Origin: a virus
IMG/VR virus record: IMGVR_UViG_3300046817_000924
Location: 1-42,942 of that record
DNA length: 42,942 nt
Reading direction: 5' to 3' (one strand)
In this document: positions 16,502 through 42,504 of the stretch, in pieces
Layout of the letters: every line of letters starts with the position of its first letter
Numbering within the stretch: position 1 is the stretch's first letter
Notes under the pieces: model-generated
Seen by the model: only the letters and a program-made list of their open reading frames with translations
Database searches by the model: none
What the model was told of the DNA's origin: nothing
Program-made: the position numbers and the translations under genes

Positions 16502-16662
16502 CGGAAATTGATGTAATTATAACCACACTAGAAGAACAACGTAATGCGGCGTTGGCCATGTGTGTGAATCTGAAGGTACAAAACTTTCAGCTTCAAACGG
16601 AGATTGATAAACTGAAAGCCGAGATCGCTGAACGCGATAAGCCAATAGTTCCGCCCGAATGA
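16498..16662 (+). CDS. 54-residue coiled-coil protein
   Basis: A short gene whose ATG overlaps the preceding stop (ATGA) and whose stop overlaps the next ATG in the same way. The product is almost wholly helical with heptad character (IITTLEEQRNAALAMC, LQTEIDKLKAEIAERD) and ends with IVPPE. The two tight overlaps make translation likely. Its place among fibre genes suggests a small assembly factor or a trimerising accessory of a fibre, but no family was recognised. Confidence 0.6.
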   Translation: MTEIDVIITTLEEQRNAALAMCVNLKVQNFQLQTEIDKLKAEIAERDKPIVPPE

Positions 16663-17819
16663 GTAACGGTTTCGGTGCAGTAGGCGAACTGGCATTAGGC
16701 CAAATACCATCAGGTATTCGTGCGTCTGCTGGTGCGTCTATTGGTATTGCAACGGTTTCTGTAACCAGTGTTACGATTCATTGGGGTATTGGAAGTTCTT
16801 CGGGAACCGTCAGCGTAACAGCGATTGGTGGATCGACTGTAGCGTCGGTTGGTAGCTGTTCTGGAATTGCTACGGTTGTTGCAGTTGGGGCTGGTGTTGC
16901 AGCGGCTGTGGGGAGTTCGGTCGGTATTGGTGTTGTACTTGCGGGTGGAAGATCGGTCGCAGCATCAAGTGGAAATTCAACTGGTACTAGTTCAGTAATT
17001 GCGAACGGTGCATCGGTTGCGGCGGCGGCTGGAAATTCTAATGGAACTTCAACTGTAGCAGGAATTGGGGCCAGCGTTGCAAGCGGGGCCGGTAGTTCAT
17101 TTGGTACAAGCGTTGTTCAAGCGGTTGGTGGTTCGGTCGCCGCAAGTGTCGGTAGTTCAAACGGTACCAGTTCTGTTTCAGCGGATAGTGTTACTGTTCA
17201 TTGGGGTTTGGGAGCCTCGGTCGGGACAAGCAATGTAGAAGCAACAGGTGTCGCAGAATTCGCCGGCGATGGAAGTTCAGTCGGTTCTAGTTTAGTTTCT
17301 GCAATTTCTATTGAAATTCATTGGGGCGCAGGAAGTTCCGATGGGACTTCGGCGGTTGATGGTGTTGGTACATCAATTGCAACGTTTGACGGTGAGATTG
17401 TTGGATCTTCAACAAATGTTGCGGTTGGATCAAGTGTAGCGAGTGCGGCTGGAAGTGCAGCCGGAACTAGCACAGCACATGCAAATAATAATTTTGAAAC
17501 TATTACTGCTGATGGTGCTGCCCAGGGAACGTCAACGGCTGCGGCTGTTGGGGCGTCGATTAGATTTTCTGCGGGTAATAGCGGCATTCCGCTACCGCAA
17601 ATTCCACCTATTGTAATAATCGATGGTGAAGCGCCCGGCGCGGTATTTGTTGTAACAGTACAATTAATAGGTGGGAATTCTTTAGGTTCTATTTCGATTG
17701 ATGGTGAATTTGGTTCAACGGATTTGGTTGCGGCCAAGGTGTCGATTATCGGTGGCGGCGCAGTTGGTGAACAAAACCTAAACGATGACGAGTTGTTAAT
17801 TCTGTTAGAGGCGGCTTAA
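16659..17819 (+). CDS. repetitive Gly/Ser/Ala-rich appendage protein, probable beta-solenoid
   Basis: A 386-residue protein built from roughly 19-22-residue repeats of the form GxSVAaxxGxSxGTSxVxAxG, about a dozen of them between residues 20 and 300. Special copies contain S-V-T-V/I-H-W-G (VTIHWGIGSS, VTVHWGLGAS, IEIHWGAGSS) at regular intervals. The alternation of small and beta-branched residues suggests a stacked beta-solenoid or trimeric fibre shaft. The C-terminal 80 residues are different (PPIVIIDGEAPGAVFVVTVQ). It lies between the fibre and the tail connectors, so a virion appendage is likely. No enzymatic motif was seen. Confidence 0.65.
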   Translation: MSNGFGAVGELALGQIPSGIRASAGASIGIATVSVTSVTIHWGIGSSSGTVSVTAIGGSTVASVGSCSGIATVVAVGAGVAAAVGSSVGIGVVLAGGRSVAASSGNSTGTSSVIANGASVAAAAGNSNGTSTVAGIGASVASGAGSSFGTSVVQAVGGSVAASVGSSNGTSSVSADSVTVHWGLGASVGTSNVEATGVAEFAGDGSSVGSSLVSAISIEIHWGAGSSDGTSAVDGVGTSIATFDGEIVGSSTNVAVGSSVASAAGSAAGTSTAHANNNFETITADGAAQGTSTAAAVGASIRFSAGNSGIPLPQIPPIVIIDGEAPGAVFVVTVQLIGGNSLGSISIDGEFGSTDLVAAKVSIIGGGAVGEQNLNDDELLILLEAA

Positions 17820-36403: not shown

Positions 36404-36967
36404 TTAGCTCCCGGTATAATCGATGATTGTTTTGAGTTGGTCGAGCATCTTTTCGGGGGTCGAGTTGTTTAGGATGGTTAGATCGGGAACGATGACGGAC
36501 ATTTCGATTTCGGAAATATGGGTTGAGGCGATTTGGTTGGGATTGTTTGGCCGCTCGATGCGGATTATTATGCCGCCCATTTCGCGGATTGTATTGATTT
36601 CGTGATGAAAGCGGGTGTCGTCTATTACGATTTTGATATCGGGATAGTTTGGATGATTCATAATATTTCGTTTCCAAACATCGACCCAGAGATTTTTGTC
36701 GATTAAATCTCTCCATTCTGTGCCGAGGGTTTGCATTACATAGCGTGGAGTGCGGTTGTTTAGAAATAAGGTTGGTGTTTCTTTTAAATCTCCTTCGAGC
36801 ATTCTGTGCGCGGTGGTAGTATCAATGCCTTGATATCTAAGGAGATATGATAACATTGATTTTAACGGAGTTGCAAACTTCGTTTGTGTCCAGCCGCAAT
36901 TGAATAGTAGGTTGGAGAGGGTTGTTTTACCGCTGCCGGCGACGCCGGTGATGGCGAGGAGTTTCAT
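36404..36967 (-). CDS. deoxynucleoside monophosphate kinase
   Basis: The 187-residue P-loop kinase is similar in pattern to T4 gp1-type dNMP kinases. Walker A is GVAGSGKTT at residues 8-16, followed by GWTQTKFATPLKSML, the segment that positions the nucleotide. YVMQTLGTEWRD and KIVIDDTRFHHEINTIREMGG carry the acidic strand and the helix typical of this family. It would phosphorylate dNMPs, including dTMP from the ThyX-like enzyme. Its ATG overlaps the upstream stop, and ThyX-like follows five bases after its stop. Confidence 0.87.
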   Translation of the reverse strand: MKLLAITGVAGSGKTTLSNLLFNCGWTQTKFATPLKSMLSYLLRYQGIDTTTAHRMLEGDLKETPTLFLNNRTPRYVMQTLGTEWRDLIDKNLWVDVWKRNIMNHPNYPDIKIVIDDTRFHHEINTIREMGGIIIRIERPNNPNQIASTHISEIEMSVIVPDLTILNNSTPEKMLDQLKTIIDYTGS

Positions 36968-37179
36968 GCTACCACCTTTACCTTTTTCATGTCTTTCATT
37001 GCGAAGTCGCGAGTTTCTTTTTTATTTATATCGAGAGCTTTCATGAACCATTGAAGGTCGGGGTGATATTGGTTTCCGCCATAGTAGATTTCGTAAACTA
37101 AAACTATTCGGTGGCTTTCGACACCTTTATAGTTTACGTAATCGAATTCTAGGACTCGTTTGTCTTTGATGCTTATCAT
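36964..37179 (-). CDS. small conserved phage protein, WYL-like strand pattern
   Basis: A 71-residue protein from ATG 37179, which overlaps the stop of the 2H phosphoesterase gene (ATGA). The pattern MISIKDKRVLEFDYVNYKGV, RIVLVYEIYYGG and HPDLQWFMKALDINK then RDFAMKDM is widespread in phage genomes as a small beta-rich unknown protein. Its YxNxxG then LxxYEIxxG and LxAxDxxK strands recall a WYL-like fold. The partner and function are unknown. It sits between the phosphoesterase and kinase genes with overlaps on both sides. Confidence 0.6.
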   Translation of the reverse strand: MISIKDKRVLEFDYVNYKGVESHRIVLVYEIYYGGNQYHPDLQWFMKALDINKKETRDFAMKDMKKVKVVA

Positions 37180-37601
37180 CGCAGGGTTCCTTTTGAGGTT
37201 TCTTTCCAAGTGCCATAATATTCGTTGGATAGAGTTATTGGAAATCTGGGTGTGTGTAGTTTTGTTATATCCCATTTGTTTGGTGATATTGGTGGGGAGA
37301 TTGTGATGTGAGATTTGAAATATTCATGGTCAGCTGTAGCGCCGAGATTTCTTAATTCAATATGTCGTTCAAAGAGACGTTGGTTTTCAAGTCTAAGTAC
37401 TAAACTTTCTTCTAAAACTTCAAGCCAATATGGCGGTTCGATTATTAATGGAAAACATTTGGCGGTTCTGTATGGGAACCATTTACGGGAATAGATTATT
37501 GTGGCATGTGGGCGAGGCATTTCATAGGCAAAGTGTTTCCATAATAAAAATCTGGATTCGAAACTGACTTCGGCCCCTACGTAATAGATTGTATCGTTCA
37601 T
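37176..37601 (-). CDS. 2H phosphoesterase, Acb1-like (possible anti-CBASS)
   Basis: The 141-residue protein carries two HxT motifs, H32-x-T34 (PHATIIYSRKW) and H98-x-T100 (SHITIS), which define the 2H phosphoesterase fold. Between them is RLFERHIELRNLGATADHEYFKSHITIS-type sequence, whose RH..L...GA..dh.ey..HIT pattern matches phage Acb1-like proteins. The two motifs are 66 residues apart, close to the spacing in T4 Acb1 (H44/H113 from memory). Acb1 cleaves cyclic di- and trinucleotide signals of CBASS defence. A tRNA-processing or 2',3'-cyclic phosphodiesterase role is the alternative. Its ATG overlaps the helicase-like gene stop, so it is expressed with replication genes, early in infection. 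Confidence 0.75.
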   Translation of the reverse strand: MNDTIYYVGAEVSFESRFLLWKHFAYEMPRPHATIIYSRKWFPYRTAKCFPLIIEPPYWLEVLEESLVLRLENQRLFERHIELRNLGATADHEYFKSHITISPPISPNKWDITKLHTPRFPITLSNEYYGTWKETSKGTLR

Positions 37602-38794
37602 CGGGAATTCCTTTCCACAAAGTCGGGAGTGTTGGGTTTGTAGCCTTCTTTTGATCCGAAGCCGGCCCCGAGTAGGAAGCCGCGCTGTTCGGCGGTTTTT
37701 AGTAGATGGGGAATTCGCTCAACCGGGGCACGTTTGGAGAAGAAGCTATATATTTCGCCGGGAAGAATGATACGCTCGTTTTCGTTTTTCCAAAGTATCC
37801 AAACGAAGTGGTGCATGTCAATTAAGAGTTGGTTGTCGGATTTTTGGCCCATTGCGCGGAAAACATCGGGCATGGTTTTTTCGGCTTCTAGTAGCCAGCC
37901 GAGGCCGCGTTTCCAGTCGGAAAGCATTACTTGGTTGCCGTGACCGGCGGAGACTGCGGAAATCATCGCGAGCTTTAGAGGAAATACGTCGCGGCGGCCA
38001 ACGTAATTGGCGAGACGCTGGTAGTTGGGAACTGGGGCCATTTCGTTGACATTGAACCATTGATCCCAGGCATCCATTGCGTCTTGATCCCAAATGAACG
38101 GGCCGTGCAAATCTTTGAACCAAACGGCTAGATCTTTTTCTAGTTCGGTGGTGTCGAGATTGTCTTTCTTCTTGAAGATGTTTCGGTATTTTTTAACCGG
38201 GGCACCGTAGATGAATAAGATGCGGGAACAGAAGCCTTGGCCCCAAGCGTTTTCGGGCATGATGTCGTTTAGGGCATCGGGGGTTGTTCCAGCGAGGATG
38301 TTTAGTGTTGGACGTTCGATGTCTACGTCATCGGATGTTTGCCGTGGGGCGGTGTATTTTTGCGGAGAGTCGTAAATGTGAGTTAAGTCGGCAACGAAAT
38401 CTTTTTCGTATTTGGAAATTAGGACGGAGAGTTCTGGAACTAGGGCAGTCATTGCACAATACGGGTCGAAGCCGTTCATGTTGGAGCGGAGAGCGTTTTG
38501 GAGGGCGTTTAGGAAGGTTCGCTTTGTGGGATTGTCGGGGGCAAGAAATAAACCATTTACGGAACCGAGAAGTTGGCGTGCGATTGTAATGACTTGGCCT
38601 TTTCCGGTTGCGGGTGGGCCGGTTAAAATGATGTAGAGGTTGGGGCGGAGCGGATCGAATGCATCGGTATCGGTATAGACTTTACGTTCGAGAACGGATG
38701 CAATGGTTCCTATGGCGGCCCATAGACGAAAGCTTTCCGGCGACCAGAGATCGGAAGTTAGGTCTAGGAACTTTTCAATCCAATCGGAAGACAC
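37598..38794 (-). CDS. P-loop helicase-like replication protein (DUF3987-like)
   Basis: The 398-residue protein starts at GTG 38794 with AGGAAAG upstream. Walker A is LTGPPATGKGQ near residues 57-67, a Walker B-like strand MTALVPELSVLISKYEKDF lies near 114-132, and a sensor-like LNILAGTTPDALNDIMPENAWGQGFCSRILFIYG segment follows near 164-197. This order matches phage replication ATPases of the DUF3987 type, often fused or adjacent to primases. It would be the replicative helicase working with the separate prim-pol. It has no primase domain of its own. Confidence 0.72.
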   Translation of the reverse strand: MSSDWIEKFLDLTSDLWSPESFRLWAAIGTIASVLERKVYTDTDAFDPLRPNLYIILTGPPATGKGQVITIARQLLGSVNGLFLAPDNPTKRTFLNALQNALRSNMNGFDPYCAMTALVPELSVLISKYEKDFVADLTHIYDSPQKYTAPRQTSDDVDIERPTLNILAGTTPDALNDIMPENAWGQGFCSRILFIYGAPVKKYRNIFKKKDNLDTTELEKDLAVWFKDLHGPFIWDQDAMDAWDQWFNVNEMAPVPNYQRLANYVGRRDVFPLKLAMISAVSAGHGNQVMLSDWKRGLGWLLEAEKTMPDVFRAMGQKSDNQLLIDMHHFVWILWKNENERIILPGEIYSFFSKRAPVERIPHLLKTAEQRGFLLGAGFGSKEGYKPNTPDFVERNSR

Positions 38795-39398: not shown

Positions 39399-39610
39399 GC
39401 TAGAGTTTCCTGCTTTATACGAGCAATTGCTACTTCTCTACGCCATATTTCTGCGGAGCCGCAAATGTCTAAATGGCCGCCGCCAACGAATAGCAATCTT
39501 GTTGGACCGTTGGCTTCTAGTTCAATTATTGCAGCGATGTTGCAAATCTCGATGAATGCTCGATTTCGATCTTCGAGAGTTATTGTTTCTATTTGACCAT
39601 AGATGCTCAT
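39395..39610 (-). CDS. 71-residue hypothetical protein
   Basis: ATG 39610 overlaps the polymerase stop and the 3' end overlaps the next ATG. The middle contains a hydrophobic strand-turn (RLLFVGGGHLDICG) and helical flanks (RAFIEICNIAAIIELEA, RREVAIARIKQE). No family was recognised. The tight overlaps on both sides support translation. Confidence 0.5.
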   Translation of the reverse strand: MSIYGQIETITLEDRNRAFIEICNIAAIIELEANGPTRLLFVGGGHLDICGSAEIWRREVAIARIKQETLA

Positions 39611-41112
39611 TGTAGTCTGATCCCATCTAGGCCAGCGGGGTTCCAATCTTCTTTGGTTCCGTCAGCGAGGAGTCGGTATCGATGCGCCCAGTTTTGGCCG
39701 CCGACTATTTCACCAGGAATTGTCATGGTGCGTCCAGAGCGAGAGTGTTGTGTTACTTGGATATTGTTGAGAGCCTTTTCTAACATGTTAAATTCTTCGC
39801 GTTCGGAGCAGAATGGATATTGAAAATAGATGGCATCGTGGAGTTGACTTAGGATTTGGACTTCTGTTCCTTGGTACTTCCAGAGGCGGTATAGACCAAG
39901 ATTAACTGCGTCGGCGGTTGCGGATTGGAACATATAGGCGATGGCGGATTTCCATGTTTCGCGGTCGGTAGGGCGGTCAAAGAAGTCACGCCTGCGGCCA
40001 TAGCTGTTGGTTAGGTTTCTTTCGGTTTGAAGAACTGCAATGATATATTGATGCATTTCGCGGATTGGGAATGCGGCGAAGTAACGGTCTTGGAACTCTT
40101 GAACAAGATGGAGTGGAATTCGAGTTTGCCGGGAGATTTCGTTTGGTTCGCCCAGGTAGTTGGTTGCGTGTCCGAGTCGTTTGCTGGCATCGCGATATGT
40201 GAAGAAACGGTAGAAACGCCGCTCGGCAATTGCACGATCCTTTTTAAGATCCCCAGTCCACGCCCATTCGGGATAAAGTAGGCGTGTAACGTAAGTATGG
40301 AGATCGCCTGACTCGCAGGCGTTGAGATAAGTCCAGTCTCCCAGGACGGTTCCCAGGAACCAACCAACATCGCGGGCTTCTGATTGCGCTTTATCAATAC
40401 CATAGAGTTTGTATCCAGGATCGGGGATGAAGACGCGACGGAGAATTTCAGAAATGTTTTGGAAATTGTTTCCGGTTTGTCGCCAAGCTTGATCGGTTTC
40501 ATTGTAGATCATGAAGGGAGATTTGGAACTAGAAAAGCGACCGGTCTTGGTTCCGGCAATGTTGTAGGAACAACGCCAACGCCAATCGGAATCAATTTCG
40601 GTTTCGAGAACTTGGAGTGATTTGCCTAGGTCGCGGTGGGTTAGAATTCCATTGACTATCGGGGCGGCGAAAGGGTCGGAAAGTTCGAGCTTTTCTAGCG
40701 TAGCTCGGTCCATTGGAAGTTTGGTTTCGCCCATTGTGGTTTTTTTGATTTGGGGCAACTTCATTATGTCGTAGAATAGATGTTGGAGTTGCTTACCGGA
40801 ATTGGGAAGCTTTTCGGTAAAGTTGCAGCCGATGGCGGAGATTATATTGGAAAGATTGGTCCAGGTGTTGGAGCGTTTGTTGCCAAGTTCGATGATAGCC
40901 CGCTCGCGTTCTTCCATATCAACGAGGAAGCCGCGCAAGGTCATTTCCATTGTAACGCCCATTAGGGCGCGCTCGAAGCGGTATATTAAGTCGTCGTTCT
41001 GACGTAACTCAACGCGGGCGTCGTTGATTTGGTATGTGGCCGCGCAATCAAATCCATTATAAATTGGATCGGTCGCGTCGGCTATTTCTACTTTGTGGCC
41101 AGCGATTATCAT
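39607..41112 (-). CDS. family A DNA polymerase lacking an exonuclease domain
   Basis: The 501-residue protein is a polymerase I-type palm/fingers/thumb. Motif A is GIDKAQSEAR at 238-247 (Asp 240, Glu 245, Arg 247; Tyr/Ser of the usual DYSQIELR replaced), motif B RDASKRLGHATNYLG at 307-321 (Arg 307, Lys 311, Tyr 319) and motif C QLHDAIYF at 423-430 with HDA rather than HDE. The frame starts at the point where the 3'-5' exonuclease of related enzymes would end (IYNGFDCAATY), so proofreading is absent from this chain. It is the phage replicative polymerase candidate. ATG 41112 lies one base after the upstream stop. Confidence 0.88.
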   Translation of the reverse strand: MIIAGHKVEIADATDPIYNGFDCAATYQINDARVELRQNDDLIYRFERALMGVTMEMTLRGFLVDMEERERAIIELGNKRSNTWTNLSNIISAIGCNFTEKLPNSGKQLQHLFYDIMKLPQIKKTTMGETKLPMDRATLEKLELSDPFAAPIVNGILTHRDLGKSLQVLETEIDSDWRWRCSYNIAGTKTGRFSSSKSPFMIYNETDQAWRQTGNNFQNISEILRRVFIPDPGYKLYGIDKAQSEARDVGWFLGTVLGDWTYLNACESGDLHTYVTRLLYPEWAWTGDLKKDRAIAERRFYRFFTYRDASKRLGHATNYLGEPNEISRQTRIPLHLVQEFQDRYFAAFPIREMHQYIIAVLQTERNLTNSYGRRRDFFDRPTDRETWKSAIAYMFQSATADAVNLGLYRLWKYQGTEVQILSQLHDAIYFQYPFCSEREEFNMLEKALNNIQVTQHSRSGRTMTIPGEIVGGQNWAHRYRLLADGTKEDWNPAGLDGIRLQ

Positions 41113-41113
41113 G

Positions 41114-41434
41114 TTATTTTATACCTACAACATAGACCACGACTCCGATGTAACCAGATCGATAGACCGATCCCATTTGTGCGATCTCCCCACCAACAAT
41201 TGAAATGTTTTCTTTTTTAGCCGCTTGAGATAACCCAATTGAGAAATCGTCAATCCAAGGCCCCATTGAATGAACGCTTAAATCATCTACCGCAGAAATA
41301 GGATTGATACCTTTAATTCGCATTTTGTAGCAGGCTTTTCGAACTGCTGAAGAACTCATCTTTCGAATTTGTCTACGGTTCAATCGATCAACTCGTTTTC
41401 TATGGGACGCGCCAATGGTGATTTCTATAATCAT
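41114..41434 (-). CDS. short AIR-synthetase (PurM)-like protein
   Basis: The 106-residue product (ATG 41434; a longer frame from 41530 would overlap the deaminase-like gene). Residues 50-104 (DDLSVHSMGPWIDDF, SQAAKKENISIVGGEIAQM, GYIGVVVYVVG) parallel the central part of phosphoribosylformylglycinamidine cyclo-ligase, in which an ND-loop is followed by IVGGETAEMP and GVV strands. The rest of the roughly 340-residue enzyme is missing, including the usual DGVGTK loop. The first 50 residues are highly basic (RRKRVDRLNRRQIRK). It may be a remnant or a repurposed ligand- or DNA-binding piece. Purine synthesis by this fragment alone is unlikely. Confidence 0.5.
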   Translation of the reverse strand: MIIEITIGASHRKRVDRLNRRQIRKMSSSAVRKACYKMRIKGINPISAVDDLSVHSMGPWIDDFSIGLSQAAKKENISIVGGEIAQMGSVYRSGYIGVVVYVVGIK

Positions 41435-41439
41435 AGCAA

Positions 41440-42084
41440 TTAGCTCGGTTCGTTCCTTGCGGGTTGGGGGCCGGGTTCTTGGTTTTGGTATTTGCCGCGG
41501 TATGGAAGATCGGTTGGTTCGTCGAGCCATTCAAACTTGACTTGACAAACTGGATCGCCGCGTTTGTAATGGATGGTTGTGTTGCCACAGTTTATGAGTT
41601 CGACTGTTAGGAAACCTTCCCAACCGGGGTCTAGGTGGGTGTTGAAAGCGGAAATAAATACGCGGGCGTAGGATGATTTGTCGAGAACGGAACCGCAGAT
41701 GTTGGCTGGGAATGCAAAACGCTCGATAGTAGAGGCGAGTGCTGTATAATTGGTATTTGAAATTCGATCTTTAAATTCGGAATATTCTTCGGCGTGCATA
41801 AAATCTTGATGTGCCATTCGTTGTAGAAATTCAGCAACAATCCAAAATGGCATTGGTTCGAGAATTAATTCTTCTTCGGCAATACGGCAGTCGTAGGTGC
41901 AAGAACTGAGGCCGAATGATTTGCCGTTCTGGGTTCCGCGTTCGACGAATGGAGCAATGAGAGGTTTTTCTAAAGTGTCTATTACATATCTGTTTAAAAT
42001 TTTATGGTGGTATATTGATATGTATTCTCTAACGTAATTTGGAACGCAAAGTCTTCGGATTGATTGGGCTGAGAGGACGGTCAT
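41440..42084 (-). CDS. dCTP deaminase / dUTPase-superfamily protein
   Basis: The 214-residue product has the trimeric dCTP deaminase/dUTPase fold motifs. These are AFPANICGSVLDKSSYAR (equivalent to the conserved Ser/Arg phosphate loop) and HLDPGWEGFLTVELINCGN, then IHYKRGDPVCQVKF (the Gln strand). It would make dUMP from dCTP or dUTP, feeding the ThyX-like enzyme downstream. The first 75 residues contain an unusual HHKILNRYVIDTLEKPLIAPF segment. A specialised reaction, such as bifunctional dCTP deaminase/dUTPase, cannot be excluded. It heads the main metabolic part of the operon. Confidence 0.8.
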   Translation of the reverse strand: MTVLSAQSIRRLCVPNYVREYISIYHHKILNRYVIDTLEKPLIAPFVERGTQNGKSFGLSSCTYDCRIAEEELILEPMPFWIVAEFLQRMAHQDFMHAEEYSEFKDRISNTNYTALASTIERFAFPANICGSVLDKSSYARVFISAFNTHLDPGWEGFLTVELINCGNTTIHYKRGDPVCQVKFEWLDEPTDLPYRGKYQNQEPGPQPARNEPS

Positions 42085-42097
42085 AGGGTTGGGTTCC

Positions 42098-42325
42098 TTA
42101 GGCGGCGCAGAATTCGGCGTCGGGCCAGGATGGAGAGCAGGGAAGATATTGTACTGTCATTCCTTCTTCAAGGATGATGACATTGGTTTTAGGATTGCTC
42201 ATTGCTTCATTCCACATTTCTTGTATTCGTTCGATTTGTTCTCTGGATAAATTTCCTGGAACGGTTAGAATGTATTTGCCGCCTGGCGGTGGATCACAAA
42301 TGAATATGTGGCCGTCGTCCTCCAT
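42098..42325 (-). CDS. 75-residue hypothetical protein
   Basis: ATG 42325 has GGAG nine bases upstream. A TTG at 42340 would add five residues but overlaps the upstream gene. The sequence has a beta/alpha look (HIFICDPPPGGKYILTV, REQIERIQEMWNEAM, NVIILEEGMTVQYL). No family was recognised. The pattern of two strands, helix, strand is seen in several unnamed phage proteins. Confidence 0.5.
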   Translation of the reverse strand: MEDDGHIFICDPPPGGKYILTVPGNLSREQIERIQEMWNEAMSNPKTNVIILEEGMTVQYLPCSPSWPDAEFCAA

Positions 42326-42327
42326 TT

Positions 42328-42504
42328 TTATGCACTCCAATTGAAAAGATGATAGAGTGGTGGTCTTGCTTCGAGTTGTTTTAATTCTTCTTCGAGGGTT
42401 TGTAGCAAGTTTTGTGTCTGTTCAATTTTCTCTTTTAATCGTCCAACTCTGGAATCGTATCGCCAAGCGGTTTCGGATGATTGGTAGGAAGCAATGTCGT
42501 CCAT
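42328..42504 (-). CDS. 58-residue coiled-coil protein
   Basis: ATG 42504 has GAGG eight bases upstream. Residues 17-46 are a likely coiled coil (RVGRLKEKIEQTQNLLQTL, EEELKQLEA), and the last 12 residues are aromatic (LYHLFNW). Its stop lies three bases before the next gene's start. Unknown function. Confidence 0.5.
   Translation of the reverse strand: MDDIASYQSSETAWRYDSRVGRLKEKIEQTQNLLQTLEEELKQLEARPPLYHLFNWSA

Follow-up and report, generated by a model that had tools for sequence, protein, structure and literature searches.

The question raised by this locus is whether a small gene embedded in the replication operon of an uncultivated virus encodes an Acb1-type nuclease directed against CBASS, and whether such an enzyme would act on the same signals as Acb1 of phage T4. 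In the window, by which we mean the whole 42,942-base stretch of this virus record, the plus strand carries the structural genes and the minus strand the replication genes, the latter running from the right end of the window down to ~32.2 kb. The initial annotation had placed an Acb1-like 2H phosphoesterase with two HxT motifs (H32/T34 and H98/T100) at 37176-37601. An ORF of 141 aa was present on the minus strand at exactly these coordinates, with both motifs at the expected residues (Table 1) and a good ribosome-binding site, GGAAAGGAA, upstream of its ATG. The gene starts inside the end of the DUF3987 gene and ends inside the WYL gene, with four-base ATGA overlaps at 37598-37601 and 37176-37179, respectively, and a third such overlap (36964-36967) joins the WYL gene to the dNMP kinase gene. 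The claimed coupling to replication genes is thereby established from the coordinates.

Table 1. Features of the acb1-like locus (positions in the window)
Feature	Position	Strand	Remark
acb1-like gene, 2H phosphoesterase, 141 aa	37176..37601	-	ATG to stop
Catalytic motif 1, H32-A-T34 (T4 H44/T46)	37500..37508	-	alignment, DNA pattern
Catalytic motif 2, H98-I-T100 (T4 H113/T115)	37302..37310	-	alignment, DNA pattern
Y7, base-stacking tyrosine (T4 Y12)	37581..37583	-	Y in 56/56
L63, replaces base-stacking T4 W74	37413..37415	-	F or W in 52/56
H92, replaces T4 F107	37326..37328	-	H in 28/56, mostly portal-fused forms
G130, replaces adenine-contacting T4 E141	37212..37214	-	E in 41/56
C-terminal tail, residues 131-141, at site of T4-type W147 lid	37179..37211	-	low model confidence
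DUF3987 primase/helicase-type gene	37598..38794	-	ATGA overlap with acb1-like gene
WYL-domain protein, 71 aa	36964..37179	-	ATGA overlap with acb1-like gene
Deoxynucleoside monophosphate kinase (DNMK, T4 gp1 family)	36404..36967	-	ATGA overlap with WYL gene
Family A DNA polymerase	39607..41112	-	same operon as acb1-like gene

The family of the predicted protein was assessed by sequence and by fold. It matched the Pfam family Acb1 (PF23474) with an E-value of 3.1e-15 and 56.6 bits, above the curated cut-off of 27; up to E 1, this was the only Pfam family matched. When all solved structures were searched with phmmer, Acb1 of phage FBB1 (7t26) was the sole PDB match up to E 10 (E 2.4e-5), and BLASTP gave 32% identity to T4 Acb1 over 100 residues (E 2e-10 for a single comparison); elsewhere we quote the identity to T4 as about 31%. 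The AlphaFold2 model, built from 26 sequences, reached a pLDDT of 84.6 and a pTM of 0.78. Foldseek of this model against the PDB returned Acb1 at ranks 1 and 2 (7t26, TM 0.75, E 3e-7; 7t27, TM 0.64), and many named Acb1 proteins were among the matches in the viral library. No PADLOC model matched the protein. Profile and model together establish family membership and predicted fold, and they support the assignment as an Acb1-family 2H phosphoesterase whose relationship to T4 Acb1 is distant but still recognisable.

To place the active site, 56 Acb1 domains were aligned, comprising T4-like stand-alone, portal-fused and other stand-alone forms and the protein of the window. The tetrad H32/T34/H98/T100 aligned with T4 H44/T46/H113/T115 and was invariant in all 56 rows, as was S38, which establishes the catalytic residues at the level of the alignment. 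A DNA pattern for both motifs at the spacing of this gene (HxT-x-x-Y-S ... D-x6-H-[IV]-T) had a single match in the window and no match in 100 dinucleotide shuffles; across all viral contigs it matched only two near-identical relatives. Residues and predicted fold strongly indicate that the enzyme is catalytically competent.

The ligand pocket differs from the published one. In T4/FBB1 Acb1, the bases stack against four aromatic residues (Y12, W74, F107 and W147), the adenine N6 is contacted by E141, and a lid is made up of residues 145-152 (PMC9117128). In T4, recognition of adenine requires E141, which also sets the choice of substrate. Three of these five published ligand contacts are replaced in the window protein, namely W74, E141 and W147, the last of which aligns with S136. 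This gives substance to the earlier suggestion that the sequence has diverged so far that its substrate range could be new. W132, four residues earlier in the alignment, may stand in for the lid tryptophan. The hairpin and the tail are the least certain region of the alignment, and a pairwise alignment sets W59 opposite W74. We scored each domain for an aromatic residue or histidine at the four stacking sites plus E141. The window protein kept 2 of the 5 contacts, the lowest count among 55 Acb1 domains; the next lowest was 3, and 51 domains keep 4 or 5. In the family tree its branch is the longest, and no supported node places it with either the portal group or the T4 group. Since A, Q or K occupies the E141 position in 13 of the 56 aligned domains, we did not treat this residue as required for Acb1 membership, nor were the stacking aromatics (Y12/W74/F107/W147) taken as defining alone, because they vary among accepted members. 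As W74, E141 and W147 are all replaced, the base preference or affinity probably differs from that of T4 Acb1, and it is not certain that the usual CBASS signals would be cleaved; from the aligned residues, a changed base preference is plausible.

The Acb1 family is known and widespread, T4 Acb1 matching 1,449 phage records. With T4 gp57B and FBB1 Acb1 (PF23474; 7t26, 7t27) the window protein shares the fold, the HxT/HxT tetrad and the equivalent of Y12, and like T4 Acb1 it is a small stand-alone protein with a DNMK-family dNMP kinase encoded close by. Unlike T4 Acb1, it lacks W74, E141 and W147 and has 66 instead of 69 residues between the catalytic histidines. The T4 gene lies in the T4-like tail/tRNA region, whereas the window gene lies between the DUF3987 and WYL genes of a much smaller genome. 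Stand-alone Acb1 genes neighbour a dNMP kinase gene in T4-like phages, a clamp-loader-like gene in contig L088 and a DnaB helicase gene in Vibrio phage pv27, so a location among replication or nucleotide genes is recurrent and not peculiar to this phage. The portal-fused forms (PF06381 + PF23474) of alphaproteobacterial phages and prophages are alike in having H at the F107 site and in some loss of E141. They differ in that the Acb1 domain is the C-terminal part of a portal of ~600 aa, whereas the window Acb1 stands alone in a replication operon and does not group with the portal forms in the tree. Acb1 domains at the C-terminus of ~600-aa proteins were seen in L046-L049, L051-L057, L092-L111 and P0004, and P0004, the one that was scanned, is a fusion of Phage_portal_3 with an Acb1 domain. 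If carried in the virion as part of a portal, an anti-CBASS nuclease might in principle be active as soon as the phage enters the cell. The BCSR5 phage phosphodiesterase (9q2g, 9q2y), which followed FBB1 Acb1 in the Foldseek ranking, resembles the window protein in fold and has a lid that is open or closed; the two share 14-16% identity at a TM of 0.62-0.66. A literature search found no paper on this enzyme.

The small gene downstream had been suggested to belong with acb1. Its ATG at 37179 has a ribosome-binding site, AAAAGGAA, and the upstream ATG at 37275 has none, so the gene is best taken as 36964-37179. The case for a link to Acb1 is weak. Relatives of this WYL-only protein occur in 389 phage records, one of them, in a Cronobacter phage, adjoining a ribonucleotide reductase gene, and the annotations of the two phage neighbourhoods examined held no Acb1 near the WYL relatives. 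Given this wide distribution and the two neighbourhoods without an annotated Acb1, the idea of a dedicated acb1 partner was dropped, and we leave the WYL protein out of the system.

The lineage is known from three near-identical contigs only, the window and two others. One is 100% identical over the shared 13.8 kb; the other has 98% DNA identity and 96.5% identity in the Acb1 protein. In the latter pair, Acb1 differs by 5 amino-acid changes in 141, all within residues 71-86, and by 5 non-synonymous versus 4 synonymous codon changes. Ten other operon genes of the same pair carry 23 changes in 2,924 residues (0.8%), which gives an odds ratio of 4.6 for acb1 (p 0.008, small numbers). The dCTP deaminase gene was excluded here, since a deletion lies next to it and its own identity is 96.2%. 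The excess of amino-acid change in acb1 is compatible with an arms race and with relaxed constraint alike. A 138-aa ORF at 41114-41530 on the minus strand, whose N-terminal domain is AIR-synthase-related (AIRS, E 3e-5), overlaps the dCTP deaminase gene at its end. About 330 bp of this ORF are absent from the near-identical contig L002, which suggests a recent insertion or deletion. In the early region, far from the head genes, an 80-aa ORF (42098-42340, minus strand) matches phage portal proteins over ~50 residues with E about 1e-6.

The phage lineage has no close relative among 50,697 phage records, and no plasmid relatives were found. For terminase and capsid, the closest relatives belong to proteobacterial phages; for the polymerase, the closest is in Caulobacter phage Kuura. 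In the sister contig L114, just past the position of the window's right end and by the end of the shared region, lies a NADAR-domain gene (16656-17144 of that contig, plus strand, Pfam E 6e-27). NADAR enzymes reverse guanine ADP-ribosylation (PMC11125620), and the family is known to undo ADP-ribosylation of the DarT type, against which this gene may protect the phage lineage. The lineage may therefore be equipped against two kinds of defence, and more than one counter-defence gene in this phage would fit the presence of NADAR in a near-identical contig.

How T4/FBB1 Acb1 works has been published, as has cleavage by 9 more homologues (PMC9117128). The window protein is most likely an early counter-defence nuclease of the Acb1 family that would linearise CBASS cyclic di- or trinucleotides, possibly with a changed base preference. 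By analogy with T4 and FBB1 Acb1, a host CD-NTase would meet infection by making such a nucleotide, and the U-shaped pocket of the enzyme would bind the ring. The two HxT motifs would provide metal-free acid-base catalysis, in which a ribose 2'-OH would attack the 3'-5' bond and the ring would become a linear product via a 2',3'-cyclic phosphate. The CBASS effector would stay inactive and the phage could complete its cycle. In this scheme we infer cleavage as well as its target, its timing and the advantage that it gives the phage. As to timing, translation is coupled to that of replication genes, and the enzyme should accordingly be at hand by the onset of replication; the position of the gene suggests that it is made early, while promoter scans for early expression gave results at chance level when set against shuffled DNA.

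A general 2H phosphoesterase of the LigT, CPDase or AKAP7 type, with RNA ends or other 2',3'-cyclic phosphates as its substrate and no anti-CBASS role, would share the superfamily fold and the HxT motifs. The protein also matches PHROG 755, which is labelled 'RNA ligase', as are many T4-like records. The same annotation, however, is carried by T4 57B, the founding Acb1, so the label is no argument for an RNA-end role. The LigT_PEase and 2_5_RNA_ligase2 profiles of Pfam gave no match up to E 1. In the Foldseek comparison of Acb1 with RNA-end 2H enzymes that had been proposed as a check, Acb1 came first, with LigT and plant CPDase well behind (TM about 0.5, E 3e-3 or worse). With the predicted fold clearly nearer Acb1, this explanation is improbable.

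Because the adenine contact and the lid are lost, we also considered an Acb1 relative whose substrate has shifted to adenine-free rings, such as clade E cyclic di-pyrimidines, or to another cyclic or linear signal. The replacements at E141, W74 and W147, the lowest contact count and the longest branch all point this way, and clade E CD-NTases making cyclic di-pyrimidines have been described (PMC10442399). On the other hand, portal-fused domains can likewise lack E141 (with A, Q or K in its place), W59 or W132 may take over stacking, and the alignment of the short hairpin is uncertain; we give such a shift a modest chance. It is rather doubtful that we are dealing with an Acb1 lineage that has neither an adenine requirement nor a closing lid and whose CBASS substrates, for example cyclic di-pyrimidines or larger rings, would be beyond the reach of T4 Acb1. 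The lost contacts, together with the high amino-acid divergence between otherwise near-identical phages, could mark a decaying gene whose function is gone. Against this, the open frame, catalytic residues and start signals are intact and the ATGA overlaps are kept in three contigs, which makes decay very unlikely.

The favoured reading, an Acb1-family nuclease, extends stand-alone Acb1 to an uncultivated small-phage lineage. The protein is a divergent new member of a known family, and its interest lies in the altered ligand pocket. As a natural variant without the published adenine and lid contacts, it offers a direct test of the residues that set specificity for CBASS signals. If it is active on non-adenine rings, the known range of anti-CBASS nucleases would be widened.
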